Shown: positions 14,762-32,784 of the stretch, piece after piece
How the letters are laid out: each line of letters starts with the position of its first letter
Numbering within the stretch: position 1 is the stretch's first letter
Source of the DNA: Fidelibacterota bacterium
Lineage (GTDB): Bacteria > Fidelibacterota > Fidelibacteria > Fidelibacterales > Fidelibacteraceae
Direction of reading: 5' to 3'
NCBI GenBank assembly: GCA_030156395.1
Contig: JASGMP010000008.1
Coordinates: forward strand, 1-35,831
Length of the DNA stretch: 35,831 nucleotides
Translations under genes and position numbers: made by a program
The notes under the pieces: generated by a model
What the model saw: the letters and a program-made list of their open reading frames with translations, nothing else
Told to the model about the DNA's origin: nothing
Database searches by the model: none

Positions 14762-17704
14762 ATGAAGCTTAAAATTCTTGTTTTATCATGGATACTGGCT
14801 ATTGCATCCGGATGGTTATACGCGAGTACTACGGGAAAAATTATCGGACAGGTAACTGATGCCCGGACCGGTGAACCATTGGTCGGATGTAATATTATCA
14901 TTGAAGGTACATATCTGGGAGCGGCATCAGATATGGACGGGAATTTTGTCATTTTGAATGTGCCTCCCGGTGAATATATCATCCAGGCTTCCATGATCGG
15001 ATATGCACCACAGTCTTTACAAAATGTTTCAGTCTCGGTGGACCGTACCACGAACCTTGACATTGAAATGCGCGTGGAAGCCGTGGAAGGTGAAGTGGTA
15101 ACGGTAGTGGCTGATCGTCCCATGATTGTCCGGGACCGCACATCCTCGGCTTCTCACGTGAGTGCCGATGATATGGCTAATATGCCCATTGAAACGGTAA
15201 GCGAGGTGATCGGAACCAAGGCGGGTATTGTAGATGGTCATTTCCGTGGTGGGCGTAAAGGCGAAACCATGTACATGGTGGATGGTGTTCCTGTCACCGA
15301 TCCTTTTACCGGAAACCAGGGCGTAGTGGTGGATGCCGGTGCCGTTGCGGAACTTCAAGTGATTACCGGATCTTTCAACGCGGAATATGGCAATGCCATG
15401 TCCGGTGTGGTCAATATCGTCACAAAAGATGGATCCAATACCTTCAGCGGTAATATCCACACCTATTTTGGCGATTATATTTCCGATGAAACAGACTATT
15501 TCCCCCATATTGATGATATCAATCCACTCAGTATCAAAAACTTGCAGTTATCCTTCGAAGGCCCCCTGGTAAAAGATAAAGTCTTTTTCTATACAAATAT
15601 GAGATATTACACACACGAGGGACACTTATGGGGACAACGGCGCTTTGATACGGATAACTTTTTCTACCATCTAGATTCGCCCGATTCAGTGGTTGTGACC
15701 GATGATTACCAAACGTATATGTCCCACATGTTGTCCATTAATCCCAACTATGGTGGAGATCCAGCAAATGATACCCTGACGATTTTATACCAAACAGGAG
15801 ACAATGCATGGATCCCCATGAATACGTCGGAAGAACTGAATTTTCAGACTAAACTTACCTGGCGGATCAATCCTACCCTTCGAATTTCTTACAATTTTAT
15901 CAGCAATAATCTTCCCAATCTCTTTGGCGATTATATTTCATGGACGGATTACAGTCATGACTGGCGATATACCCCTGACGGGCTCAATAATAAATACAGC
16001 CGGGCTCTTACGCACAATATCAATATTCACCGGGGCATTTCGTCCAGGTCTTACCTAACCTTTGGTTTGTCCCGGTATTCCACCAATTATCACCACTATC
16101 CCTTCGGTCCTGATGAGATCGTCAATATGGAAATTATTAATACAGCAACCAGCAATTCCGGAAAACCTCTCAATACCTTTAATGTCGGCGGCATGGAAAA
16201 TGAGTATTATGAACGCCATTTAAATATGACAAGCCTGAAAGCAGATTATGTGAATCAAATTACCTTGCATCATGAAATCAAAACCGGCGTGGAATTTAAA
16301 CAAACCCGTTTATCTGAATTCAGATTTAGTCTGGACGGACAGTCCGGAAATGCCAATTTTGACATGTTGGTAAACGGAGAATTTTCCACACTCCAGGACT
16401 ATCTCTTTGCTTCATACGAAACCATTGAACAGACAAACAATGCCTTGAAGGATTTTTCGAACTATGTCCACGACAATCCTGTCAAACCCTGGCAATTATC
16501 CGCCTACATTCAGGATAAAATTGAATACAATACGATTGTTGTCAATGCAGGCATCCGGCTCGATTACTTTGATCCGAATTTCCATGTCCTCTCAGATCCC
16601 AGAGATCCCAATATATTTACCCCCATCGCCCCGAAAAACCGTTATAAAGATACAAATGGTGATGGTGTGATACAGGCTGATGAAATGACAACTGACAATG
16701 AATATACAACCGAAGAAAGGGCTGATTTCTGGTACAGGGATGTGGAAGGGAAATATCAGATTTCTCCACGGATCGGTTTCGGATATCCCATATCGGACCG
16801 GGGATCCATCCATGTATCCTTTGGACAATTCCTACAAATGCCTTTGATGGATAAACTGTATAAAAATCCTCTCTATCAGATGGGAACGGGTACAGGGCTC
16901 CAGGGAGAGATGGGGAATGCCGATCTGAAACCAGAGCGGACCAATCAGTATGAAATCGGGCTCCAACAGCAGATTTCCAATGATATCAAATTACAACTGG
17001 ATATTTTTTACCGGGACATCCGGAACCTCCAGAGTGGTGATAAAATCATTGAAACCTATCAGCAGGGAACCATGTATTCCATTTACAGCAACAACGATTA
17101 TGCGGAAATCAAAGGAATAACGATCTCCCTGGAAAAAAGGTATTCAAATTATTTTAGTGCTTTTCTGGATTATACTTATCAGGTGGCTGAAGGGGTTTCA
17201 GTGGATCGGAACGCAGCGTACAATGCTATCAATAATAATATGACACCGGAAAAACAACTGATTCCCCTGGGACATGATCAGCGGCATACGCTCAATGTTA
17301 CCACCAATATTGGGGTCCCGGGAAACTGGAATGTGGGAATCATTGCCAAATGGTCCACCGGTATGCCATATACCATCGGAAATCTTGAACTGGTACAGCT
17401 GACACAAATTGCCAATACGGGTGTAAAGCCTGCCAAAACCAATGTGGACATGCGTTTTGACAAAACTCTGAATTTTGCAGGCATCCATTTTAATCTCTAT
17501 CTCAAAGTCAGCAATTTGTTTGATACGATGAACGAATATAACGTTTTTGATGATACGGGACGTGCCACGTATACGACTCTGGAAAATAAATACAGTGAAA
17601 CACAAGCCAGTCAAATGATTAACAGTCTCCGGGAGTATCTGATACAGCCCACGAATTTCAGTCATCCGAGACGTGTCGTTGCTGGTGTTCAATTTGATTT
17701 GTGA
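14762..17704 (+). CDS. TonB-dependent receptor with carboxypeptidase-regulatory-like N-terminal domain
   Basis: This is a 980-residue outer-membrane receptor. A signal peptide (about 1-21) is followed by a carboxypeptidase-D regulatory-like Ig domain (about 25-105: GKIIGQVTDARTGEPLVGCN, then LNVPPGEYIIQASMIGYAP). The plug domain (about 110-225) includes YMVDGVPVTDP and FNAEYGNAMSGVVNIVTKDG. The remaining part is a 22-strand-type beta-barrel that ends in an aromatic/hydrophobic strand (VVAGVQFDL). Such an architecture is shared by SusC-like glycan importers, but no SusD homologue is recognisable next door. It is followed after 7 nt by a giant secreted protein, suggesting an operon. The ligand is unknown; the downstream amylases make an alpha-glucan plausible. 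It could also serve a structural or surface role common in FCB-related phyla. Confidence 0.9.
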   Translation: MKLKILVLSWILAIASGWLYASTTGKIIGQVTDARTGEPLVGCNIIIEGTYLGAASDMDGNFVILNVPPGEYIIQASMIGYAPQSLQNVSVSVDRTTNLDIEMRVEAVEGEVVTVVADRPMIVRDRTSSASHVSADDMANMPIETVSEVIGTKAGIVDGHFRGGRKGETMYMVDGVPVTDPFTGNQGVVVDAGAVAELQVITGSFNAEYGNAMSGVVNIVTKDGSNTFSGNIHTYFGDYISDETDYFPHIDDINPLSIKNLQLSFEGPLVKDKVFFYTNMRYYTHEGHLWGQRRFDTDNFFYHLDSPDSVVVTDDYQTYMSHMLSINPNYGGDPANDTLTILYQTGDNAWIPMNTSEELNFQTKLTWRINPTLRISYNFISNNLPNLFGDYISWTDYSHDWRYTPDGLNNKYSRALTHNINIHRGISSRSYLTFGLSRYSTNYHHYPFGPDEIVNMEIINTATSNSGKPLNTFNVGGMENEYYERHLNMTSLKADYVNQITLHHEIKTGVEFKQTRLSEFRFSLDGQSGNANFDMLVNGEFSTLQDYLFASYETIEQTNNALKDFSNYVHDNPVKPWQLSAYIQDKIEYNTIVVNAGIRLDYFDPNFHVLSDPRDPNIFTPIAPKNRYKDTNGDGVIQADEMTTDNEYTTEERADFWYRDVEGKYQISPRIGFGYPISDRGSIHVSFGQFLQMPLMDKLYKNPLYQMGTGTGLQGEMGNADLKPERTNQYEIGLQQQISNDIKLQLDIFYRDIRNLQSGDKIIETYQQGTMYSIYSNNDYAEIKGITISLEKRYSNYFSAFLDYTYQVAEGVSVDRNAAYNAINNNMTPEKQLIPLGHDQRHTLNVTTNIGVPGNWNVGIIAKWSTGMPYTIGNLELVQLTQIANTGVKPAKTNVDMRFDKTLNFAGIHFNLYLKVSNLFDTMNEYNVFDDTGRATYTTLENKYSETQASQMINSLREYLIQPTNFSHPRRVVAGVQFDL

Positions 17705-17711
17705 GAATACT

Positions 17712-20700
17712 ATGAAATATTCATGTAAAAAGCATTTTTTCCTTCTTTTGGCCCTTTTGGGATTGACAACGGTCCTTATGGCGGAAGAGAATTCCCTGGA
17801 TCATCTGATGGGAGATAGAACCGCCCGGAAATCGGGGATTATCGCTGGGAACAAGGTCCGGACTCTCTTCTACAATTATGGTGTTGTGGGAGGCGATATT
17901 ACCGGAAGTTCACCGGAAGGAGAGTGGCCTATCGGCAGCGGGAACAGTTACATCGGTGATGTATCTATCCTTGTGGGTGTGGAACTGCCCCGGAAATGGG
18001 AAAAAAAGGCTGAAATTGATGAAAATTCCATTGTGGTTCTGGATGGAGTGGAATATGAAGTTATCGATTCCCAGACCTATCTGAATGCGAACAAAGATAC
18101 TGTTCAGGTGATTTCACCCAATACTCTCCGAATAAAAGGCATTGATTATCATGTGAGCCGGTATTTTTACAGCTGCAAATCTCTGAATATTTATCCAGAC
18201 TCACTAATGCATTTGATGTATCAGGATACCGTGTATTATGTGGGAACCAATGACGGCCCTCGGGGAGCCACAGATGGACCCGGAGGCGCTTCAAATATGT
18301 CCTGGACTTTCGAACCCCTACCTGGTTTTGCCGATCCCAACCAGGATTATATTCCCTTGGCAACAGATCTTGATTTGGATGGTGACGGGAAACCGGATAC
18401 ATGGCCCTGGTTCTGGCCGGATCATCCGGACTGGGTAGATGTGAACGGAATCCCCGAATGGAATGGATATTTCGGACGGGGTATATCCAGTGCCGATGAA
18501 GAGACCTTTTTCTATATGGATGACGCCAACGATTATGAATTTAATTACGAAAAAAACGGTTCAGGGCAGCTGGTTTTTCTCCCGGACAGTACGAACATAT
18601 CCCGGTTGGGACTGGGATTACGGGTAAAAGTCCGTGCCATGCAATGGGCCCATTTTATGGCACAGGACATGATTTTCTGGTTATATGAAATTGAAAATTT
18701 TTCGGATTGGGATTACAATAAAGCCAGCTTTGGTATGATCGTAGGAACCCTGAGCGGTGGACGTTGTAACGACCATATCGATGCCCAGGATGACCTTTCC
18801 TATTTCGATATGGAAGAGAATATGTGTTACAGCTGGGATGCCCCACCGGCCTATTCCCCCTGTTTCGACGGTCCGGTAGGGTATGTAGGTTATGCCTACC
18901 TGGAATCACCCGGAAATCCTTACGACGGGATCGATAACGACGGAGATTATTACAAACATACGGCTCCGGCTCCCCAGTTCACGGAAGAGGATTTTAACCC
19001 GGTTACTTTTGATATCGGAGATCAGATTGTCCTGATTGACGGCAAAACGTATGAACGGGAAGTGAAAACAATAGAAGAACTTCCCATGACTGATACAACC
19101 CAGGGGCGCGTTGTGACCATTCAACCCGGTGTGAATTATGAGGAAATTATCGGGAATCTGGTGGATGATGATTTTGACGGTCTCATTGATGAAAATTACA
19201 ATGCTCACTATTTATATCGTATCAAACCTCTGAGGGCGGAAGTAACTCCCAAACCTCCCTTAAGGTATAAGAATTATTTCACCGGAGCGGGAGTGGATAA
19301 CCTGATGATTGATGAAACCCGGGATGATCGCATTGATAATGACGGAGATTGGGATGCGGCGACAGATGATGTGGGGGCAGACGGCAAACCCGGAACCCGG
19401 GATGAGGGAGAAGGTGATGGATTACCCACACCTGGTGAACCTAATCTGGATGCCACCGATATCGATGAATCCGATCAGATTGGTCTGACCTCTTTTAACT
19501 ATTTTACTCCGCCTGGCAAGGTCCGGATGAATGATGACTATAACTGGGATATCAGCAGTCCGGGCGGTTTGTGGAACCGCATGCAACCGGGGAACTACGA
19601 TGAAATCAGTCTGGAACCAGTGGATGGAGATTTTATTTACGGAGCCGGATATTTTCCCATCCGGAAAGGACAAACAGAACGATTCTCACTGGGACTTGTG
19701 TATGGTAATGATGAAGCAGAATTGTACAAAAACAAACAGGTTGCCCAGCAAATATATGACGAGAATTACAACTTCACCCGCCCCCCTGAAACACCTACGG
19801 TAAAAGTGGTGCCCGGTGATGAACAAGTGACCCTTTACTGGGATGATCTGGCTGAGTATTCCCTGGATCCCTGGCTGGGATATGACTTTGAAGGATACCG
19901 GATTTACAGGGCAACAGTGGAAGGTTTCAACGATATCAATACCATTACCAATGCCTACGGAAATAAACAGTTTTATAAACCCATGGTTCAGTTCGATCTG
20001 GTAAATAATATCAAAGGAAATTACGTGGGGGACCTCAACATTTCCGGCGGTATCTCCTTTTATCTCGGGAACGATGAGAACGGTCTGGAGGGAGACGAAG
20101 GCATTACCCACAGCTGGACTGACACAACCGTTGAAAACGGGAAAATGTACCTGTATGCAGTTGTCTCCTATGACCGTGGCGGAAGCCACCTGGGAATTCC
20201 TCCGGCGGAATGTTCCAAACGGGCCGTTTACTCCGGAAGTTCCTGGAATCTGGGGACCAATGTGGTTGTCATCCGTCCCGGAGGCTATGTATCGGGATAT
20301 GAACCGGGTCATGTCAGCGGGACAGTGACACATCAGGGGACTGCCACCGGCAATGTCCACGTAGATGTGATTCATTCAGCCATGCTTCCGGAATCCTGGG
20401 GCGGAGAAACACGGGAATTGGAAATCCGTTTTGTGGATACGTCGAATGACCTGTATGACAATAATGGGAACTGGTTTGAAACACCGGCAGACTCTGCCGA
20501 TGATCTCAACGGAAATCAATATCCTGATGACGGTGAACCAGATTATAATGCCCTGGATCCTGCAGAAGCGCTTACCCGAATAACCACCGGATGGTGTTTG
20601 ATTGATGTCACAACATCCGTTCCTGATACACTGGTCCCCTTGCAGGAACAGGTGATGCTGCCTCAATCCCTGTTACCGGAAATTGGAATGGCCATGAATA

Positions 20701-21569
20701 CCACCAGCTTGTCAACTCTGTGGCAACCGGCTACGGCATATCGACTTCCATCCAATGAGTTGGGACTTGAAATTCTCTTTGATAATGACTGGGTAATTGA
20801 ATCGGATGCTGAAAAAAGCGGATGGAATGGTGCCACTACCGTTCCTGTTGAAATCCGTCAGGCTTCAAATGGCTACCGGAATGGGGATGCCTTTGTCCTT
20901 ATGACCGACATCAGCGGCCAGTCTGTGGCTTATGATGTTTATCCTGCATCTGTAACTGATTTCAATGTCATGCTGTTGAATACAAGATCACCCTATCCCC
21001 TGAAATATGCTTATGATGATCAGGCACCTTCAGGACTCTCTGAAGATGATAAAATCATTATACTTCGACAGCTTGATAATGGTATTGAGTATCCTACATG
21101 GGAAATCAGTTTTTCCGGTGATATTTCTACTGTAGGTGATGAGTATACCTTCTATTTCAAACGTCCCTTTACAAATGAGGATATCTTCCATTTTTCAGTT
21201 CAGGGTCCCCTTGTGCACGAAGAACAGGCCGAAGAATCCATTGATCATGTGAAGGTGGTTCCCAATCCCTATTACGCCGCAGCCAGCTGGGAATTCCGTG
21301 GCTCTGCTGCGGCTGCCAGTTCACTGGTTGGAAGGGGAGACCGGAGAATTGCTTTCATCAATGTACCGCAAAATGCCACCATCCGGATATATACCGTCCG
21401 GGGCGATCTGGTCCAGGTACTGAAACAGGATGGCGGCATTTCTGACCGCATATTCTGGGATTTACGGTCCAAAGATGAAATTGAAATCGCCTACGGTGTC
21501 TATATTTTTCAGGTTTCGGTCCCTTTCTCCGACAAAACTTATACCGGCAAATTTGCTGTGATAAAATAA
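17712..21569 (+). CDS. Large secreted protein with Fn3 module, Asp-rich loops and T9SS/FlgD-like C-terminal domain
   Basis: The product has 1285 residues; an upstream in-frame ATG at 17673 overlaps the receptor gene, so the ATG at 17712 that opens a clean signal peptide (MKYSCKKHFFLLLALLG) is preferred. The N-terminal 680 residues match no family I recognise, but contain repeated acidic loops like calcium-binding or thrombospondin-type repeats: LDLDGDGKPD (about 220), GIDNDGDYY (about 403), VDDDFDGLIDE (about 482) and DDRIDNDGDWD (about 537). A fibronectin-type III-like module starts near 694 (VTLYWDD, FEGYRIYRA). The C-terminus (from about 1178: HVKVVPNPYY, IYTVRGDLV, IAYGVYIFQV, KFAVIK) resembles the T9SS sorting or FlgD-Ig fold. 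It is probably surface-exposed or secreted. It is a paralogue of the next gene over the Fn3 and C-terminal parts. Confidence 0.8.
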   Translation: MKYSCKKHFFLLLALLGLTTVLMAEENSLDHLMGDRTARKSGIIAGNKVRTLFYNYGVVGGDITGSSPEGEWPIGSGNSYIGDVSILVGVELPRKWEKKAEIDENSIVVLDGVEYEVIDSQTYLNANKDTVQVISPNTLRIKGIDYHVSRYFYSCKSLNIYPDSLMHLMYQDTVYYVGTNDGPRGATDGPGGASNMSWTFEPLPGFADPNQDYIPLATDLDLDGDGKPDTWPWFWPDHPDWVDVNGIPEWNGYFGRGISSADEETFFYMDDANDYEFNYEKNGSGQLVFLPDSTNISRLGLGLRVKVRAMQWAHFMAQDMIFWLYEIENFSDWDYNKASFGMIVGTLSGGRCNDHIDAQDDLSYFDMEENMCYSWDAPPAYSPCFDGPVGYVGYAYLESPGNPYDGIDNDGDYYKHTAPAPQFTEEDFNPVTFDIGDQIVLIDGKTYEREVKTIEELPMTDTTQGRVVTIQPGVNYEEIIGNLVDDDFDGLIDENYNAHYLYRIKPLRAEVTPKPPLRYKNYFTGAGVDNLMIDETRDDRIDNDGDWDAATDDVGADGKPGTRDEGEGDGLPTPGEPNLDATDIDESDQIGLTSFNYFTPPGKVRMNDDYNWDISSPGGLWNRMQPGNYDEISLEPVDGDFIYGAGYFPIRKGQTERFSLGLVYGNDEAELYKNKQVAQQIYDENYNFTRPPETPTVKVVPGDEQVTLYWDDLAEYSLDPWLGYDFEGYRIYRATVEGFNDINTITNAYGNKQFYKPMVQFDLVNNIKGNYVGDLNISGGISFYLGNDENGLEGDEGITHSWTDTTVENGKMYLYAVVSYDRGGSHLGIPPAECSKRAVYSGSSWNLGTNVVVIRPGGYVSGYEPGHVSGTVTHQGTATGNVHVDVIHSAMLPESWGGETRELEIRFVDTSNDLYDNNGNWFETPADSADDLNGNQYPDDGEPDYNALDPAEALTRITTGWCLIDVTTSVPDTLVPLQEQVMLPQSLLPEIGMAMNTTSLSTLWQPATAYRLPSNELGLEILFDNDWVIESDAEKSGWNGATTVPVEIRQASNGYRNGDAFVLMTDISGQSVAYDVYPASVTDFNVMLLNTRSPYPLKYAYDDQAPSGLSEDDKIIILRQLDNGIEYPTWEISFSGDISTVGDEYTFYFKRPFTNEDIFHFSVQGPLVHEEQAEESIDHVKVVPNPYYAAASWEFRGSAAAASSLVGRGDRRIAFINVPQNATIRIYTVRGDLVQVLKQDGGISDRIFWDLRSKDEIEIAYGVYIFQVSVPFSDKTYTGKFAVIK

Positions 21570-21578
21570 GGAATGAAG

Positions 21579-24500
21579 ATGAAGCGTTTTACAATAGCCC
21601 CCATCATTTTTATCATAACTCTGTATGCCGCCCTGTGGGCTCAGACAATTCACCCTGTACCACCGGATTCTCCTGTCCTGAATGCTGTTCCGGGAGACGG
21701 AAAGGTAACCCTTTATTGGGGAACAGAGGCGGAAAATCATATCGATACCATCCGCCAGATGCTTTATCCTGCCTCTCCTGAAAAATGGAACGACTTTGAA
21801 GGATACCGGATTTATAAAAGTGAACATCATGATTTTAAGGATGCCTATACGATCACAGATGTCCATGGGAATCCTGTCTTTTACAGTCCGGTGGCTGTTT
21901 TTGATAAAATAAACTCCCATGAGGACCTTTTTACGGGAAATTTCGGGATTAAAATGCCACTGGTTCTGACAGATGAGAGTGATAATCCCATGACCGAATC
22001 ATTGCCGCCCTTCTTTCCCGATGTCCGCCCCTATCAGCCATTCTCAACCCTTAACGGAGAGTCTTTAAACGGTAACTGGATTCTGACAATCCGGGATAAT
22101 TATGCCGATACGAAAATGGGTGTCCTGAAAGAATGGGATTTAATCCTGAACGGTGTTAAACGAACCGGTTCTATTGACCATCTGACCCTCCAGGCTAATG
22201 GGTCCTTTGAAACCTGGGATGTTTTTAATCCAACTCACTGGCAGGCTGTCGATACGAATGCTTTTTATATCAAAACCGATTCTTCACTCTATGTCACTGA
22301 TGGTGATTATGCGGCTCAGATACTCCTCCGAAATAAATGGGTAACTACAAAACTTGATACCATTGAAATATATCAGCGCATTCCCTATATGGTTAAAAAT
22401 TCCCAGTATACCTTATCTGCGGATATCTATCTGGACAGCAATGCCACGGCTGAAGTGGGTTTCAGGCAATATTACGCCGTTGCATCCGGCCTGTCCCAGT
22501 CCACATCCGAAGAAATGAATCCGAAAAAATTTTCTACTTTACATCCCGATGGGAATCGTTTTAAGTACCCTCAAACCCTTACACTTCACCCAGATTACCT
22601 TTTCGGAGAATTTTTTATCCGCGTGATTTCCAATGATACCGTATCAGTCTATGTGGATAATGTAACAATCCGGGGAAACCGCTACTTTGGGGACGAGTTT
22701 GTCTCAACCGTGCAGGATACCCTGACTATCGGTTCAACCGGAACTGTTTCTTCACTGGATCTCACCCTGGACATGACCCATGAATGGGTTTATATGCTGG
22801 ATATATTTCTAGAATCCCCGGCCGGAACGGTCATTGACCTGATTAAAGGGGAGTATGTTCCCAGTATTTACGGGGATTACGGAATTTCCTATTATCTGGG
22901 CGAAAACAGCGGTTTAAAATATTCCTGGGTGGACCAGGATGTAGTGAATGGAAAACGCTATTTTTACGCAATTACTTCATTCGATTCCGGCGATACCCTA
23001 TACAATATTTTCCCTGCTGAATCACATTTTACAACTGATTATGATCCCATCAGCGGGACTCTGGAAATGTCTGAGAATGTGGTCACTGTTGTACCGAATT
23101 GCAAAGCTGCAGCCTATAAGCCGGCTAGAATGCAAGGGGGAGGTAATACACTTCCTCATGTTGAAGGGCCCGGAACAAGTGTCATTTCTCTTGAAATTAT
23201 GGACCCGGTGAAAATCACCGATAAGAATCTGTACCGCCTGGTGTTCAGGGATACCCGGGATACCAGCATCATGGATCCGTCCATTACCACTTCTCCTTAT
23301 AAACGGGTTATTCCTTACACGTGGGATTTTTCACTCCTCAATACGACAACAGGCGATACCCTCATTGAAAATTCCAACCAGTTCAACCGGATTACACCCG
23401 TTGTAGAAGGTTTCCGCCTCAATGTAAAGAATGAGACGTCAATATCCATCTGGGAAGACAGTACAGAATGGAGATCCGGGGATGCTTTCAAACGACCCAA
23501 TCTGGTTTTTTCAACGACACCCAATTTTTCCGGCCGCCCTTTTCCTACGGATTATAAAATCACTTTTTATGCAGACACAGTGGATAGCAGTATCGAATTC
23601 ACATCCACCTTCGATAAATTGGATGTTCATCCTGTAACCTATCTGGTAGAAGATCTGGTGAGTGGGAAAAAAGTCGAGACCGGTTTTTCCCAAATTGCCA
23701 ATACATACAACAATTTTATCATTTACTTGTTTTATGAAGATACTGTGAACTACAGCGGGACTGATATTTACAGGCCAACATGGTCTGTAAAAATGGAATC
23801 TGAGGGAGAAAATGTCATTTCCCTTCAGAATGAACAGATTGGTGGGAGGGGGTATTGGACCGGTGATACAACGGCAGTCCAAACACAAGCCCGAATTTCA
23901 GGTCGGCCGCCAACCATTATGGGCAATCGCGCCATTAATATGACTCATATTGTCAAGTATAACAGCGATCCTCTTTACTACTGGCGACGGTATCATCTCG
24001 ATCCGGGGTATTACAGAGCCTATTTCCTCATACAGGCCGATGAGAGGGATGTGAATATGGCCTTTGAATCAAAGTCAGGGAATTTGATGAAGCCCTTTAC
24101 CATTACGCAGGATGCCGGCTGGCAGGAAGTGCATATCGATTCATTGATTCTGACGGAAGAAGATTCCCTGGCGTTGGTCTGGTACCCTGAAACCACTGAT
24201 AGTGTTACGCTGAAAATATCCTATATTTCCATCCTGGAATACTATCCAATTGCTCCTGAGGATGAACTGGTGATTCGGACCAAAAAGCCCTTCCGCAAAG
24301 AAGATATCTTTGAATTCAGTCTGGAGCAGGCTTTTGTCAATGAAGATTCCGTTGAAAACAATCTGGACCATGTGAAAGTGGTTCCCAATCCCTATGGAAT
24401 CGCATCCCTTTATACATTCCAGGATGAATACGGCGGACACGAAGATGGTATTCGGTTTATTCATGTTCCCCTGGGGAGCAAAATCAGGATCTATTCTATC

Positions 24501-24671
24501 AATGGTGCTTTTGTAAAAGAATTGATCCATGAAGGATCTCTTGAAGACGGTACCGTTTTCTGGGATTTGAAGAATAAAGACGGCCGGAAAATTGCTTACG
24601 GTGTGTATCTCTATTACCTGGATGCCGGTGAGCATGGGACCAAAACCGGCAAATTTGCAATTATACGATAA
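21579..24671 (+). CDS. Large secreted protein: Fn3 with inserted, order-reversed P domain and CBM4/9-like module, T9SS-like tail
   Basis: The product has 1030 residues. The ATG at 21579 is preferred over 21573 because AAGGA (21568-21572) is then 6 nt upstream. After a signal peptide (1-21) an Fn3-like module begins (VTLYWGT, FEGYRIYKS, to about residue 110). It is interrupted by the C-terminal half of a proprotein-convertase P domain (about 115-193: FSTLNGESLNGNWILTIRD), a CBM4/9-like module (about 205-365: NGSFETWDVFNPTHWQ), and then the N-terminal half of a P domain (about 370-424: VSSLDLTLDMTHEWVYMLD, LESPAGTVIDLI). The Fn3 module resumes at GISYYLGENSGL. The C-terminus (about 930 on: HVKVVPNPYG, KIAYGVYLYYL, GKFAIIR) matches the upstream paralogue. 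It lies 9 nt after that gene. P domains and CBM4/9 modules bind or stabilise ligands, so a surface adhesin or glycan-binding role is plausible but unproven. Confidence 0.8.
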   Translation: MKRFTIAPIIFIITLYAALWAQTIHPVPPDSPVLNAVPGDGKVTLYWGTEAENHIDTIRQMLYPASPEKWNDFEGYRIYKSEHHDFKDAYTITDVHGNPVFYSPVAVFDKINSHEDLFTGNFGIKMPLVLTDESDNPMTESLPPFFPDVRPYQPFSTLNGESLNGNWILTIRDNYADTKMGVLKEWDLILNGVKRTGSIDHLTLQANGSFETWDVFNPTHWQAVDTNAFYIKTDSSLYVTDGDYAAQILLRNKWVTTKLDTIEIYQRIPYMVKNSQYTLSADIYLDSNATAEVGFRQYYAVASGLSQSTSEEMNPKKFSTLHPDGNRFKYPQTLTLHPDYLFGEFFIRVISNDTVSVYVDNVTIRGNRYFGDEFVSTVQDTLTIGSTGTVSSLDLTLDMTHEWVYMLDIFLESPAGTVIDLIKGEYVPSIYGDYGISYYLGENSGLKYSWVDQDVVNGKRYFYAITSFDSGDTLYNIFPAESHFTTDYDPISGTLEMSENVVTVVPNCKAAAYKPARMQGGGNTLPHVEGPGTSVISLEIMDPVKITDKNLYRLVFRDTRDTSIMDPSITTSPYKRVIPYTWDFSLLNTTTGDTLIENSNQFNRITPVVEGFRLNVKNETSISIWEDSTEWRSGDAFKRPNLVFSTTPNFSGRPFPTDYKITFYADTVDSSIEFTSTFDKLDVHPVTYLVEDLVSGKKVETGFSQIANTYNNFIIYLFYEDTVNYSGTDIYRPTWSVKMESEGENVISLQNEQIGGRGYWTGDTTAVQTQARISGRPPTIMGNRAINMTHIVKYNSDPLYYWRRYHLDPGYYRAYFLIQADERDVNMAFESKSGNLMKPFTITQDAGWQEVHIDSLILTEEDSLALVWYPETTDSVTLKISYISILEYYPIAPEDELVIRTKKPFRKEDIFEFSLEQAFVNEDSVENNLDHVKVVPNPYGIASLYTFQDEYGGHEDGIRFIHVPLGSKIRIYSINGAFVKELIHEGSLEDGTVFWDLKNKDGRKIAYGVYLYYLDAGEHGTKTGKFAIIR

Positions 24672-24691
24672 CGTGAACAGAGGATATGATC

Positions 24692-25705
24692 ATGAAAAAA
24701 TCATTAACGGTCTTTCTTACAGCCATTCTTTTGGCAGGCAGTTCCCTGATGGCGGCTCAATCGAAAGTGGCAACGACGGCTGCCCAGTTTCTGGGAATCG
24801 GTCAGGGAGCGAGAGCCTTGGCGACCGGCGGTGCTTTTAGTGCCGTAGCCGATGATCCGTCAGCCCTGTACTGGAATGTGGCCGGTGCGGCAAATCTGGA
24901 AAAAAATGGACTCCTGTTCAGCCATACGAACTGGTTTGCCGATATATCGTATCAGTACTTTGCCTTTACCTATAAACTTGGCTATTCCGGTACATTCGGC
25001 CTGAGTTCCACATACCTGAACTACGGATCCATGGAACGGACCACCATTGAAAACCAGGAAGGCGACGGAACCCAGTTCGAATCTTATGATTTTGTGATAA
25101 ATCTCCATTATGCCATGCAGATGAGTGACAAATTCTCCATCGGCGGTACCGTTAAATATATTACGCAAAAAATTGATATCCAGCAGGCTTCAGGTGTAGC
25201 TTTTGATTTGGGAACCCTGTATAAGCTGGATTTCAGAGAAACACAAATCGGCATGAGTTTTTCCAATTTTGGCACCAAGATGCAAATGGATGGGAAAGGC
25301 CTTTATGTCAATCATGACATTGACGATAGCTATGATTCCAACCCTGAAGTCAACGCGGTTCTTTTAACGGATAAATTCAATTTGCCTGTCTTTTTTAGGG
25401 CTGGCGTATCCATGACAGCACTGGATAAAGACCCTCTTAAAGTCCGGATTGCCGCAGATGCTCTATATCCCAATGACAATACTCCCAGCCTGAACCTGGG
25501 AGCTGAATTCTCTTTCCTTGAAAGATTCTATATCCGGGGTGGTTATAAAGATCTGGCACAACAGGATAATGAAAGCGGACTGACATTTGGGGGAGGAGTC
25601 CGGATTTTCTATGGGACACGGGGTGAAATCCTCATTGACTATGCCTATCAAAGCATGAAATATCTTTCACCACCTCAGTATTTTTCCGTGATTTTGTATT
25701 TCTAA
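24692..25705 (+). CDS. PorV/PorQ-family outer membrane beta-barrel protein
   Basis: The product has 337 residues. The ATG at 24692 is chosen because AGAGGA lies 7 nt upstream; an earlier in-frame ATG at 24686 overlaps it. A signal peptide ends at about residue 22 (LMAAQ). The start of the mature part, FLGIGQGARALATGGAFSAVADDPSALYWNVAGAA, is the hallmark of the PorV/PorQ/UPF0164 barrel group. A regular series of amphipathic strands follows, ending with an aromatic (FSVILYF). In T9SS organisms PorV shuttles cargo to the attachment complex, but many paralogues with other roles exist. Its place right after two putative T9SS cargo genes supports a dedicated export or surface-attachment role, which is inference. 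Confidence 0.82.
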   Translation: MKKSLTVFLTAILLAGSSLMAAQSKVATTAAQFLGIGQGARALATGGAFSAVADDPSALYWNVAGAANLEKNGLLFSHTNWFADISYQYFAFTYKLGYSGTFGLSSTYLNYGSMERTTIENQEGDGTQFESYDFVINLHYAMQMSDKFSIGGTVKYITQKIDIQQASGVAFDLGTLYKLDFRETQIGMSFSNFGTKMQMDGKGLYVNHDIDDSYDSNPEVNAVLLTDKFNLPVFFRAGVSMTALDKDPLKVRIAADALYPNDNTPSLNLGAEFSFLERFYIRGGYKDLAQQDNESGLTFGGGVRIFYGTRGEILIDYAYQSMKYLSPPQYFSVILYF

Positions 25706-27128: not shown

Positions 27129-27144
27129 ATAAGGGATGACAACC

Positions 27145-28971
27145 ATGCTGGCACTTGATTATGTAATTGTTTTTGTTTACCTCGGCGCCATGATTTACGT
27201 TGGACTGATGATGCAGCGGAAAGCAGAGCAGGGGATTGATTCTTACTTCCTGGGAAATCGTAATCTTCCCTGGTGGGCACTGGGTGCATCGGGAATGTCT
27301 TCAAACTTGGATATCAGCGGTACGATGATTATCGTTGCCCTGGTGTATGCCATCGGAGCCCGGGGTTTCTATATTGAAATTCGGGGTGGGGTAACCCTGA
27401 TCATGGCTTTTCTCATGATTTATATGGGAAAATGGAATCGACGGGCCGGTGTGATGACCATGGCAGAATGGATGAGTGTCCGTTTCGGGGATGACAAAGA
27501 GGGAAGACTGGCACGAACCATTACAGCCATTGTCAGTATCATCGGAACTATTGCTATGGTGACCTATTTTGCCATTGGTGGCGGTAAATTTCTGGATGAA
27601 TTTTTGGGGATTCCTTCCTTTGCCGGGCTCCCCGGTGCTTTTTGGGCTGCGACGATTCTTATCGTTCTGGCGATGATCTATACGGTTGCCTCAGGGCTTT
27701 ATGGGGTTGTCTGGACCGATGTTTTCCAGGGTATTTTAATTTTTGGGGCGATTATGTACATTGTTGTGAAAGCCATGTCCCTGAACCTCCCGGAAACCTT
27801 TTCCGTCACCATGCCCATGAAAGATGGAACATTTGCCAGTTTTCCCACCACCTTTTCCGAATGGGCCAACCTCTTGCCTCGGTGGAAATTGAACATTCAT
27901 CCGGACAGTGATTATTCTATGTATAATCTCTTCGGAGTCCTTACCATGTTTTATATCTTTAAAACAGTGATCGAAGGTAGCGGTGGGACCGGTAACTACA
28001 TGATCCAACGCTACTATTCTGCTAAAAACGATAAAGAAGCAGGCTATTTGTCCCTCTTCTGGACCTTTCTCCTCAGTTTCCGCTGGCCCTTTATCGGAGC
28101 TTTGGCGGTTTGGGGTATCTCTTTGGGAAGTCAAATTACCGATCCGGAAATGGTTTTGCCGATTGTAGTCAATACACTGCCTGTGGGTATTAAAGGATTT
28201 ATGATTGCCGGCTTAATGGCTGCCGCTATGTCCACCTTCGATTCCACGGTCAACGCCGGTGCGGCGTATTGGGTAAAAGATATTTACCAGGTTTATATCA
28301 ATCCGGAAGCAGACCATGATAAATTGATGAAACAAAGCCGCTGGTCATCCATTCTGATTGTTGTTATTGGATTGGGACTCATGCTGATTATTAAAAATGT
28401 CAATGAGATCTGGGCCTGGATTACCATGAGTATGGGCGCCGGGCTTATCATTCCCCAGTTGATCCGCTGGTATTGGTGGCGTCTGAACGGCTATGGATAT
28501 GCCATCGGTATGGCCGCCGGTATGCTGGCGGCAATTCTCTGGAAAGCCCTGGCTCCTCAAGCAACACCAGAGTATTATTCCTTCCTTTTTGCATCAGGTA
28601 TATCTTTATTGGGAACTATCATCGGTACCCTGATGACTAAGCCAACTGACGACGCTGTCCTGCAGGATTTTTATAACCGGACACGACCCTTTGGCTTTTG
28701 GAAACGCTTTAAGAATACACTTCCAGAAAAAGAAATAGAAAAAATTGACAAGGAAAATAAACGGGATATCGTTTCCACCTTCATCGCTGTTCCATGGCAG
28801 ATTGTTCTCTTCATGTTTATGATGAATCTGATTTTTAAAGTCTGGAACCAGTTTGTCATCCTTCTGCTGCTCCTTGTGGTGTTAAGTGCAGGACTCTATT
28901 TCAACTGGTTCAGATACCTGTCGGAAAAACCACGTATACCACGGCGTAACAGAATGAAAAAGGGTCATTAA
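27145..28971 (+). CDS. Sodium:solute symporter (SSS family)
   Basis: The product has 608 residues. The ATG at 27145 is preferred because AAGGG (27131-27135) lies 9 nt upstream; an ATG at 27136 touches that site. Thirteen or so hydrophobic segments span the inner membrane, and the family core is visible: LGNRNLPWWALGASGMSSN in the first part, GGTGNYMIQRYYSAKNDKEA in the middle, and AGLMAAAMSTFDSTVNAGA in the sodium-site helix region. The C-terminal 110 residues hold a charged cytoplasmic linker (EKEIEKIDKENKRD) and two more membrane segments. Family members import sugars, amino acids, nucleosides or organic acids with Na+. The TrmB-type regulator and amylases just downstream suggest glucose, maltose or a maltodextrin as the substrate. 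Confidence 0.92.
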   Translation: MLALDYVIVFVYLGAMIYVGLMMQRKAEQGIDSYFLGNRNLPWWALGASGMSSNLDISGTMIIVALVYAIGARGFYIEIRGGVTLIMAFLMIYMGKWNRRAGVMTMAEWMSVRFGDDKEGRLARTITAIVSIIGTIAMVTYFAIGGGKFLDEFLGIPSFAGLPGAFWAATILIVLAMIYTVASGLYGVVWTDVFQGILIFGAIMYIVVKAMSLNLPETFSVTMPMKDGTFASFPTTFSEWANLLPRWKLNIHPDSDYSMYNLFGVLTMFYIFKTVIEGSGGTGNYMIQRYYSAKNDKEAGYLSLFWTFLLSFRWPFIGALAVWGISLGSQITDPEMVLPIVVNTLPVGIKGFMIAGLMAAAMSTFDSTVNAGAAYWVKDIYQVYINPEADHDKLMKQSRWSSILIVVIGLGLMLIIKNVNEIWAWITMSMGAGLIIPQLIRWYWWRLNGYGYAIGMAAGMLAAILWKALAPQATPEYYSFLFASGISLLGTIIGTLMTKPTDDAVLQDFYNRTRPFGFWKRFKNTLPEKEIEKIDKENKRDIVSTFIAVPWQIVLFMFMMNLIFKVWNQFVILLLLLVVLSAGLYFNWFRYLSEKPRIPRRNRMKKGH

Positions 28972-29019: not shown

Positions 29020-29838
29020 ATGAAAAAGACTCCCATGCATGAAGAACTGATAAAAAAACTGAATACTCTGGGATTCACAGTCTATGAATCCAAGGCATAT
29101 CTGGCCCTCCTGAAAATCAGTCCAGCCAGCGGCTATGAAATCGCCCAGGAATCGGGCGTCCCAAGAAGTGTAATTTATGATATCCTCCGTAAACTGGAAA
29201 AGGCAGGTGTGGCAGGGATCGTACATGATAAACCTAAAAAATATGTTCCCCTGCCGCCGGATCAGCTGATTTCTATGATGGATAACCAGTTCCGTCACAA
29301 TATCGAATCCCTGAAATATGAACTGGAAGAATTTTCCGAAGGGGGACATACCGGACACCTGTGGAATATCAGTGGATATTCCACTATTATGCAAAAAGCT
29401 CGGGAACTGATTCACAAAGCAAAAAAATCTGTCTATATCTCCGCCTGGGGTTCAGAAATTGAAGTTCTGAAAAATGATATCAAAGATGCTCTGAAAAGGG
29501 ATGTGAAAGTCATCATTTTCTCTTTTAATCCACTTCCCATGAAACATACCTGTTTTTACTCCTACAATATTGAAGAAAAAATACTGGAGCAAAACTGGAA
29601 TCATAAAATCGTGCTTGTGGCTGATAAACATGAAGTGCTCATGGGGGAATCGGATAAACGGTATCCTCAAAGAGCCGCCTGGACCAATAATGAAGCAATC
29701 ATATCTATTGCCATTAACTATATTATTCTGGATATCACTCTTTTCGGCCAACGCAGAGAGATCAATGTCTCCGAATCGGTTACCGATATGATGAATGGCC
29801 ACCTGAACGGTCTTGAAGAACTGATTTACAAAAAATAG
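29020..29838 (+). CDS. TrmB-family sugar-responsive transcriptional regulator
   Basis: The product has 272 residues. The N-terminal winged helix (about residues 8-85) shows the TrmB pattern: LNTLGFTVYESKAYLALLK, then SGYEIAQESGVPRSVIYDILRKLEKAG. A linker and coiled segment (about 85-107) lead to a phospholipase-D-like effector domain (from about 115: YSTIMQKARELIHKAKKSVYISAW) that binds sugars in archaeal TrmB. TrmB proteins control maltose, trehalose and other sugar genes and are much commoner in archaea than in bacteria. It sits between the symporter and two amylases, so it likely regulates them. The ATG at 29020 follows a pyrimidine-rich hairpin arm and has no Shine-Dalgarno sequence; the next in-frame ATG (29035) is no better. 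Confidence 0.88.
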   Translation: MKKTPMHEELIKKLNTLGFTVYESKAYLALLKISPASGYEIAQESGVPRSVIYDILRKLEKAGVAGIVHDKPKKYVPLPPDQLISMMDNQFRHNIESLKYELEEFSEGGHTGHLWNISGYSTIMQKARELIHKAKKSVYISAWGSEIEVLKNDIKDALKRDVKVIIFSFNPLPMKHTCFYSYNIEEKILEQNWNHKIVLVADKHEVLMGESDKRYPQRAAWTNNEAIISIAINYIILDITLFGQRREINVSESVTDMMNGHLNGLEELIYKK

Positions 29839-29859
29839 TGCCCATACGAGTTGACCCAT

Positions 29860-32784
29860 ATGAAAAAGTATCCGGACCTTTGTTTCATCCAATTTAATAG
29901 TCTTGTAAGATATATTTTCTTTGGACTCTTTATTCCCTTTGTTTTACAGGGAAGCCCCGTGACTTCAGAGCCTGTTTTTCCAACTCAGTTTGATTCTATC
30001 ATCGTCTTTTATCATGCGGAATTGGGTAACAGAGCCCTGGAGGGCAGTGATGATACACTCTACGCCCATACGGGAGTGATAACGGATAAAAGCAGTAGCC
30101 CTTCGGACTGGAAATATGTGGTTACTCCCTGGCCAGGCGAAGGAACGGATGCCAATCAGTCTAAAAACCTTCTTGAACGTCTGGATACAAATCTCTATAA
30201 ACTGGTTATTGGATACCCGGCTGTCTATTACCAGGTCCCTGATGATGAGCAAATTCTTAAATTGGCCTTCGTTTTCAGGAACCAGGACGGAACCCTTGTG
30301 GGAAGAGATTCGGAAGATTCAGATATTTTTCTGCCACTCTATGAAGCCGGACTTACATCCGTTCTTATTGAACCTGAGGACCGGGACAAATTTGGCCATC
30401 CGGATCGGAATCCCCTTTTTTTAAACAGTTCAGACACTCTTTTGGTAAGTTTTACAGCAGCTGCACTGGGCGTTGATGCCGATTCGCTGGTTGTTCTCCG
30501 TAATGGGGAAAGACTCTTCTTTACAGTGCAGGATTCTTTGAATCTGCAATATCCGCTATCTGCCGCTTGGAAAGGCCGCAACCTGATACAATGTGTCTCT
30601 CTGTCTGCCAAAGGAATTACGGATACTCTTTCATTCACCCTTATTGTTGATCCTGCTCCTCAAATGATTACCAAACCGTCTGAGGTCCGAAACGGTGTCT
30701 ATTCTCTCGACGCCAAAAACACGCTCTTTTCATTGATGGCGCCCAACAAGCGCTTCGTCTATCTTCTCGGGGATTTTAACGATTGGAAGGTGGATGATGC
30801 CTACCTGATGAATAAATCAATTGAGGGAGATAAGACCTGGTTCTGGTTGCCTGTGAATTCACTGACTCCCGGCCAAGAATATGCTTACCAGTATTTGGTG
30901 GATGGGAAAATTCGTGTCGCGGATCCCTATGCTGCGAAAATATTGAATGAAGGAGAAGACCCCTATATCCCCGAAACAAACTATCCCAATCTGAAACCCT
31001 ATCCTATAGGAAAAACTGAACATATTGTCTCAGTTTTTGAACCGTTTTCGGAAGATTATCAATGGCAGCATGAAACTTACTCGCTTTCACCTCAAACAGA
31101 ATGGGTGATCTATGAATTGCTGGTTCGGGATTTTTTGGAAGATCGTTCATACATATCTCTGATTGACAGCCTGTCATATCTGAAAAAACTGGGTGTCAAT
31201 GCTATACAACTTATGCCCGTCATCGAATTTGGCGGAAATGACAGCTGGGGATATAATCCCACCTTTTTCTTCGCTCCGGACAAAGCTTACGGGACAGGCA
31301 AAGATCTGAAGGCATTCATCGATTCCTGCCATGGATCAGAAATCGCCGTCATTCTGGATATTGTTCTCAATCATGCCTTTGGTGACTGCCCCTTTGTCCG
31401 CCTGTATAATGAGGGGGATTTCGGAACTCCCTCGCCGGAAAATCCCTGGTTCAATGTATCTGCTCCCCATCCCATGAGTGTCGGGTACGATTTTAATCAT
31501 GAAAGCCCATTCACCAAAGAGTTAATGAAAGAGATTACTACTTACTGGATTGAAGAATATCATGTGGATGGATACCGCTTTGACCTGTCCAAGGGATTAA
31601 CACAGACCTATTCGGGAGATGATGTAGGCGCATGGAGTCGCTACGATCAAAGTCGTATTGATATCCTGAATGAATACGCATCCCATATCCGAAGGGTAAA
31701 GCCTGATGCGGCTCTGATTTTGGAACACTTTGCGGATAATGATGAAGAAAAAACCTTAGCCCATAACGGATTTATGCTTTGGGGAAACATGAACGGGCCA
31801 TACAGCCAGGCGGCAATGGGCTGGTTATCCAATTCAGATTTCAGTTACGGGTATTTTAGAAACCGGGGCTGGTGGGCTATGAATCTGGTGACTTTCATGG
31901 AAAGTCATGATGAACCATGGATCATGTACAAGAACCTTCAGTATGGTAATTGTACCGATGACTACTGCATTAGAGATACGGTAACAGCTTTGAAACGCAT
32001 GGAGCTATCCGCCACTTTTTTTCTGACACTACCCGGACCGAAAATGATTTGGCAGTTCGGTGAACTGGGATATGACAGAGAGCTGCCGGAAGAAGAGGGC
32101 CGTACCGAAGCGAAACCTGTGCTTTGGCACTATTTGAAAAACACAAACCGGGTAAAACTCTTTAATATTTATAAAAACCTTTTAAAACTTCGGAAGGATT
32201 ATCCCTTATTCCGGAATTCTGAAACCACGGTGTCTATCTATACACCGGATCAGGTTCCAGACCGCCGCTTGAAATTGTCGTCACCCGAAATGAATGCAGT
32301 GATCCTTGGTAATTTTGGGATGAGTGAACATCTAAGCTGGCCGGAATTTCAGCATACCGGGGCCTGGTACGAGTTTTTTTCCGGGGATACCCTGTCAGTG
32401 GATGATACCGGTATAACCCTGATGCTGCAACCTGGTGAATACCGGCTCTATACTGATCAGAAACTTTTCACTCCCGATACAACCCTGCCTGTATCCATTC
32501 ATTCTCAACCGAATCAAGAAAACACACTCCGTCTGGTGAATCTCTATCCCAACCCTTTCAATGATGAAATCACTGTGCATCTGACACTTCCAGATTCCGC
32601 CCCCCTGTCGATTCAGTTTATTTCAATAATTGGAAAACCCGTGGGTGAATTTTATCTGCCGGCAGTCCGAAAGGGAACATATTCCCGGACATTCAATCTT
32701 GGTCACTTGCCATCCGGAGTTTATCTTGTAAAAATTACACAGAATCAACACACCACAACCCGTAAACTGGTGCTTTTGAAATGA
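29860..32784 (+). CDS. Secreted GH13 alpha-amylase-family enzyme with T9SS type A-like tail (copy 1)
   Basis: The product has 974 residues from the ATG at 29860, with a TTG at 29851 as an alternative. After a signal peptide (about 1-33), a DUF4961-like module (about 35-145: LYAHTGVITDKSSSPSDWKY) is followed by a linker Ig-like region and a CBM48-like glycogen-binding module (about 286-375: FVYLLGDFNDWKV). The catalytic (beta/alpha)8 barrel has region I DIVLNH (D500), region II GYRFD (nucleophile D575), region III LILEH (acid/base E622) and region IV SHD (D684), all intact. The C-terminal 80 residues (NLYPNPFND, GVYLVKI, KLVLLK) resemble a type A T9SS sorting domain. It probably degrades starch or related alpha-glucans outside the cell. 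It begins 21 bp after the regulator and overlaps the next gene by 4 bp. Confidence 0.92.
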   Translation: MKKYPDLCFIQFNSLVRYIFFGLFIPFVLQGSPVTSEPVFPTQFDSIIVFYHAELGNRALEGSDDTLYAHTGVITDKSSSPSDWKYVVTPWPGEGTDANQSKNLLERLDTNLYKLVIGYPAVYYQVPDDEQILKLAFVFRNQDGTLVGRDSEDSDIFLPLYEAGLTSVLIEPEDRDKFGHPDRNPLFLNSSDTLLVSFTAAALGVDADSLVVLRNGERLFFTVQDSLNLQYPLSAAWKGRNLIQCVSLSAKGITDTLSFTLIVDPAPQMITKPSEVRNGVYSLDAKNTLFSLMAPNKRFVYLLGDFNDWKVDDAYLMNKSIEGDKTWFWLPVNSLTPGQEYAYQYLVDGKIRVADPYAAKILNEGEDPYIPETNYPNLKPYPIGKTEHIVSVFEPFSEDYQWQHETYSLSPQTEWVIYELLVRDFLEDRSYISLIDSLSYLKKLGVNAIQLMPVIEFGGNDSWGYNPTFFFAPDKAYGTGKDLKAFIDSCHGSEIAVILDIVLNHAFGDCPFVRLYNEGDFGTPSPENPWFNVSAPHPMSVGYDFNHESPFTKELMKEITTYWIEEYHVDGYRFDLSKGLTQTYSGDDVGAWSRYDQSRIDILNEYASHIRRVKPDAALILEHFADNDEEKTLAHNGFMLWGNMNGPYSQAAMGWLSNSDFSYGYFRNRGWWAMNLVTFMESHDEPWIMYKNLQYGNCTDDYCIRDTVTALKRMELSATFFLTLPGPKMIWQFGELGYDRELPEEEGRTEAKPVLWHYLKNTNRVKLFNIYKNLLKLRKDYPLFRNSETTVSIYTPDQVPDRRLKLSSPEMNAVILGNFGMSEHLSWPEFQHTGAWYEFFSGDTLSVDDTGITLMLQPGEYRLYTDQKLFTPDTTLPVSIHSQPNQENTLRLVNLYPNPFNDEITVHLTLPDSAPLSIQFISIIGKPVGEFYLPAVRKGTYSRTFNLGHLPSGVYLVKITQNQHTTTRKLVLLK

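Follow-up and report, generated by a model that had tools for sequence, protein, structure and literature searches.

How does a domain whose two halves stand in reversed order come to be kept within another protein, and do the halves still form one domain? The question is raised by a gene in the 35,831-nucleotide stretch of DNA analysed here (the window), which in Neomarinimicrobiota bacteria encodes a protein predicted to lie on the cell surface. According to the coordinates and translation of the open reading frame, positions 21925-22860 of the window correspond to residues 118-429 of a 1032-aa product, for which an earlier note had given 1030 residues. That note proposed that the C-terminal half of a proprotein-convertase-type P domain precedes the N-terminal half in this stretch, that a CBM4/9-like module lies between them, and that the whole block sits in a loop of an Fn3 domain. 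The adjacent paralogue, the gene and the parts of its product are as follows.

17673..21569, + strand: adjacent paralogue, 1298 aa, with an uninterrupted host domain at about 19779-20360; this neighbour is kept in other permuted loci
21573..24671, + strand: whole gene with the permuted P domain, predicted secreted protein; 1032-aa open frame, full-length in congener orthologues
21573..21641, + strand: putative signal peptide, residues 1-23, MKMKRFTIAPIIFIITLYAALWA, read from the sequence
21657..21932, + strand: host beta (Fn3-like) domain, left part, residues 29-120; paralogue profile 8-94
21933..22154, + strand: P domain, C-terminal half, residues 121-194, first in order; PF01483 profile 54-85 and alignment with normal-order P domains
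22185..22682, + strand: CBM4/9-like jelly-roll module, residues 205-370; PF02018 below cut-off and Foldseek matches
22689..22850, + strand: P domain, N-terminal half, residues 373-426, last in order; PF01483 profile 3-32
22869..22997, + strand: host beta (Fn3-like) domain, right part, residues 433-475; paralogue profile to its end, 137
24438..24668, + strand: C-terminal region resembling type IX secretion sorting domains, residues 956-1032; similarity to the NCBIfam T9SS_PorZ C-terminus

P-domain halves and their host domain

The P-domain profile PF01483 matched the whole protein in two stretches (E 1.9e-7, 31.5 bits, cut-off 21 bits), the best at residues 160-191 (profile 55-85 of 86) and the second near residues 394-424 (profile 3-32). 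Profile 55-85 thus precedes profile 3-32, as the earlier note had read from the sequence, and the strand order, with residues 121-194 before residues 373-426, is not the normal N-to-C one; the same holds in other permuted loci. Scored alone, residues 121-194 reached 23.4 bits (profile 54-85) and residues 373-426 only 17.9 bits (profile 3-32), under the 21-bit cut-off, so that the anticipated match of the profile to both halves was obtained for the C-terminal half and at sub-threshold strength for the N-terminal one. Because neither half alone gives a strong score, and one stays below cut-off, order-dependent profiles under-call a permuted P domain.

Rejoining residues 373-426 to residues 121-194, at a boundary of our choosing (uncertain by about 5 residues, as is that of the 121-194 half), gave a single PF01483 match over profile 3-85 of 86 with 39.7 bits and an E-value of 5e-10, confirming that the halves joined the other way restore a normal P domain. 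The same operation on the orthologues L014 and L015, which are about 30% identical, yielded 42.3 and 46.3 bits. The rejoined sequences align with normal-order P domains of the phylum nearly without gaps at the cut, and the P-domain motifs SP.G, DES/DEA, G.W.L and W.L are conserved in the permuted form. The two halves are complementary, with neither a large overlap nor a loss at the cut. Once rejoined, they match the same full-length profile as the normal-order P domains found in large secreted proteins of the phylum (L054-L057); the permuted form differs from these in its reversed halves, in the module of about 165 aa that joins the original ends and in its position within a host loop. In the founding members of the family the P domain follows a subtilisin-type protease domain; a Pfam search of the whole 1032-aa protein found no protease domain.

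The CBM4/9-like module was upheld by matches below threshold together with fold similarity. CBM_4_9 (PF02018; cut-off 25.9 bits) matched residues 209-306 of the whole protein with an E-value of 0.005 and 17.6 bits, the module scored alone reached 21.4 bits, all four aligned module members scanned matched below cut-off (best E 5e-5), and Foldseek found a resemblance to CBM16, CBM4 and CBM22 structures. Although alike to CBM4/9, CBM16 and CBM22 by profile and by jelly-roll fold, the module falls below cut-off by sequence and, instead of being attached to an enzyme, sits nested in a P domain. An extra module of about 147 aa is nested within the CBM4/9-like module in three permuted loci (L015 in G037, L042 in G231 and L053 in G221). 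The one in L015 (residues 276-422 of a 1192-aa frame) begins NGDF...GW and is CBM-like; scanned alone, it gave no Pfam match.

The surrounding domain was delimited with a host profile of 137 positions built from 31 uninterrupted paralogous domains. On the 1032-aa protein this profile splits into two pieces (8-94 and 86-137 of 137) with the P-CBM block between them, and since the two complementary pieces flank the block, it is an insertion in a loop of the host domain. As the earlier note had observed for the adjacent paralogue, uninterrupted homologues run straight through the site, in that paralogue and in about 30 others. The note's description of the host as an Fn3 domain held less well: the loop insertion stands by the split profile, but none of 12 host-domain members matched Fn3 in Pfam, and the best Fn3-type signal was a single PDB Fn3-like chain at an E-value of 0.19. 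The host is a beta-rich domain that is weakly Fn3-like. The two host-profile pieces overlap by about 9 residues, and similar overlaps occur in some other permuted loci; a target duplication at the flanks was considered on this basis and set aside as too weak.

Distribution and origin of the permuted gene

Among 245 genomes of the phylum, the permuted arrangement was found in ten: six of the window's genus, G021 (family f4), G037 and G231 (both f9) and G221 (f14). Full-length copies are present in all five of the other sampled congeners (open frames of 1033-1034 aa, 70-93% identical), and the order is retained at about 30% identity, beside the same paralogue, in the four genomes outside the genus, which belong to three families. 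Its recurrence in several families shows the permuted order to be a genuine, ancient and stably kept gene arrangement and not an assembly mistake. The search for homologues that lack the insertion or carry the P domain in normal order returned both kinds, namely the 31 uninterrupted paralogues and normal-order P domains over cut-off in eight of the 245 genomes (G101, G045, G176, G177, G207, G212, G219 and G220). Within the window's genus no normal-order P domain was found at an E-value of 1e-5, so no donor is visible there. A normal-order CBM-P unit in G176 and G177, which had matched query A1 as 189-339 followed by 23-101 in the homology search, was tried as a donor and rejected because the stretch preceding its P domain is not CBM-like on reading. 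In the congener G005 (L038), the paralogue upstream of the intact permuted gene is split into frames of 1029 and 256 aa, reflecting a sequencing error or a frameshift.

Nine permuted genes fall into one clade by their host domains (98/95 support; 200 of 200 bootstrap trees), the neighbouring paralogues of eight permuted loci likewise make up a single clade (SH-aLRT 99), and the simplest reading of these two clades is that the permuted gene arose once. A recent copy of the neighbouring paralogue was rejected as its source, the permuted genes being a separate long branch. In the paralogue tree the window's genus, a member of family f1, groups with f4 and f9 and next with f5 and f11, apart from other f1 members; given this departure from the family labels, the locus was probably either transferred or shaped by old paralogy followed by losses. 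Comparison with three congeners gave dN/dS values of 0.05-0.07 for the C-terminal half, 0.07-0.17 for the N-terminal half and 0.05-0.12 for the module, indicating purifying selection on both P halves.

Two routes to the reversed order had been proposed, integration of a circular DNA through short homology (Campbell-type) and tandem duplication with loss of both outer parts. If a circle opened in the P loop recombines once, exactly this order results, with the halves complete and non-overlapping. Nevertheless, the sequences that had been taken as traces of such an event read otherwise. The left junction, formerly placed inside FDKINS, lies at about residue 121-124, after the host-like KINSHEDLFTGN. 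Both junctions had been derived from the paralogue's FDLVNNIKG, but IDLIKG at the right junction was not copied from the host and is ordinary P-domain sequence: a P domain of the phylum in normal order (L056) reads LESPAGTVIDLIKGVSGSG, and the permuted loci of other families have LFDG or LMDG at the same spot. With IDLIKG read as normal P sequence, the junction evidence for a Campbell-type event falls away. In addition, with orthologues about 30% identical from one family to another, the event is old; DNA homology dating from it is not expected to persist, and micro-homology is uninformative on this point. A plasmid search gave one weak match, to the right host part only, and a Foldseek search against viral proteins gave generic jelly-roll or tail-fibre matches only. 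Duplication, in contrast, was the earliest route proposed for domain permutation and is one of the two main accepted ones (PMC3320104). Tandem P arrays are also present in the phylum: L096 (G220) contains three tandem P domains with a period of 149 aa at residues ~750-1200 of a 2792-aa frame. From the accepted route and this array, we favour, on grounds of plausibility, a duplication, or a capture from a tandem array with its outer parts lost, and regard Campbell-type integration as an unlikely origin.

A candidate nested scaffold

We consider it highly probable that the protein carries a permuted P unit in a host loop and displays a CBM-like module, and somewhat more likely than not that it is exported by type IX secretion and takes part in alpha-glucan-type uptake. 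Residues ~121-426 would form a single, circularly permuted P domain that entered the loop of the host beta domain as a unit. The P domain would have been opened in the loop that follows the strand GTVIDLI(KG), each new end would join one rim of the host loop, and the CBM4/9-like jelly roll would bridge the original C and N termini. The folded product would be a nested scaffold in which the host holds the P domain and the P domain holds, and displays, the carbohydrate-binding-like module. In jelly-roll domains the two termini usually lie side by side. Since the entry and exit of the host loop, the ends of the P cut and the ends of the jelly roll would all be adjacent, the nesting could close without strain. 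It seems fairly likely that the inherited permuted P domain serves as a nested display scaffold, that three loci have added a further nested module to it, and that the insertions use adjacent beta-sandwich ends.

From the complementarity of the halves we infer that they pack as one fold. In the AlphaFold check proposed in the earlier note, an AF2 model with seven sequences placed strands in both P halves at a local pLDDT of ~72-88, with a mean of 53.8. In this model the P strands and the module were mostly at 70-88 and the host below 50; confidence was only local, and no model showed contact between the P halves. Run without an alignment, AF2 reached a mean pLDDT of just 31.6, too low for a usable model.

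It is improbable that the halves are instead remnants of two P domains (a P1-CBM-P2 stretch captured with its ends cut short) that fail to fold together and either stand alone or have decayed. An inserted fragment with several P domains would leave the C-terminal half of one and the N-terminal half of another, and the array in L096 attests to tandem P domains in the phylum. However, the halves are complementary and cut in a single loop, both persist in four families whose copies are about 30% identical, and both are under purifying selection; moreover, a jelly roll split into separate halves would leave the core of each exposed. Capture of a P1-CBM-P2 stretch as the route of origin is compatible with one permuted P domain in a host loop, and the rival consists solely in separate, non-packing halves. 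The last alternative, that pieces of two genes were joined in the wrong order by assembly or binning, has a negligible probability: the window does come from a fragmented draft genome of 123 contigs, but the same order, in frame throughout, is present in the congener G004, a single 2.8-Mb contig, and in eight other genomes, and the full-length copies in five congeners with the same order in three other families exclude the assembly error against which the earlier note had cautioned.

The nearest precedent for the permuted P domain in a host loop is swaposin, the plant-specific insert of aspartic proteinases, which is likewise a permuted domain inside another protein and stably inherited (PMC3320104). 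Swaposin differs in its helical saposin fold and has no third domain between its original ends. No mention of a permuted P domain was found in the literature searched, which covers few subscription papers and therefore says little about novelty. The presence of a normal-order and of a permuted, inserted P domain in one phylum provides a useful case for the study of domain permutation and nesting.

Genomic context and possible role

The permuted gene directly follows the paralogue in permuted loci and precedes a PorV gene where the contig reaches that far, whereas in about 20 genomes without the permuted gene the series of TonB receptor, paralogue and PorV-family gene is uninterrupted at the matching locus. 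The other genes of the window that bear on its role are listed below; a PPIase gene lies between the PorV/PorQ-family gene and the symporter.

14762..17704, + strand: TonB-dependent receptor, SusC/RagA-like N-terminal part (Pfam, NCBIfam)
24686..25705, + strand: PorV/PorQ family outer-membrane protein (NF033709 above cut-off)
27136..28971, + strand: sodium/solute symporter (PF00474)
29020..29838, + strand: TrmB-type sugar-responsive regulator (PF01978, PF11495)
29851..35669, + strand: two alpha-amylase-family (GH13-type) proteins of 977 and 962 aa (PF00128, PF02922, PF18962)

Export of the 1032-aa protein probably proceeds through the type IX secretion system. Residues 1-23 are a probable signal peptide, and the C-terminus resembles that of T9SS_PorZ (NCBIfam, E 9e-10, far under the whole-family cut-off). 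Profile searches of the orthologues L042 and L043 gave a CHU_C type IX signal below cut-off. Both amylase-family proteins have type IX sorting-like C-termini, the PF18962 match in the second being below cut-off. The protein would act in alpha-glucan-type uptake together with the TonB receptor, the paralogue and the PorV-family protein, and the symporter, the TrmB regulator and the secreted amylase-family enzymes would serve the same uptake. From this context and the fold of the module, we lean towards a role as a surface glycan-binding accessory of that system, with the CBM4/9-like module as the presumptive glycan-binding part and an alpha-glucan as its candidate substrate. Bacteroidota surface glycan-binding proteins of the SusD/E/F type likewise neighbour a TonB receptor, with GH13-type enzymes and a sugar regulator nearby; unlike these, the 1032-aa protein has no SusD match, has a probable type IX sorting C-terminus and lies beside a PorV-family gene. 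In Neomarinimicrobiota, the locus points to a system for surface uptake that has received little study.

The paralogue more likely starts at an ATG at 17712, which precedes a signal-peptide-like stretch, than at the listed GTG (17673), which overlaps the TonB receptor gene. The triad of TonB receptor, long paralogue and PorV-family gene (14762-25705 in the window) is conserved in many Neomarinimicrobiota genomes, and G037 carries two such triads near each other (L071).
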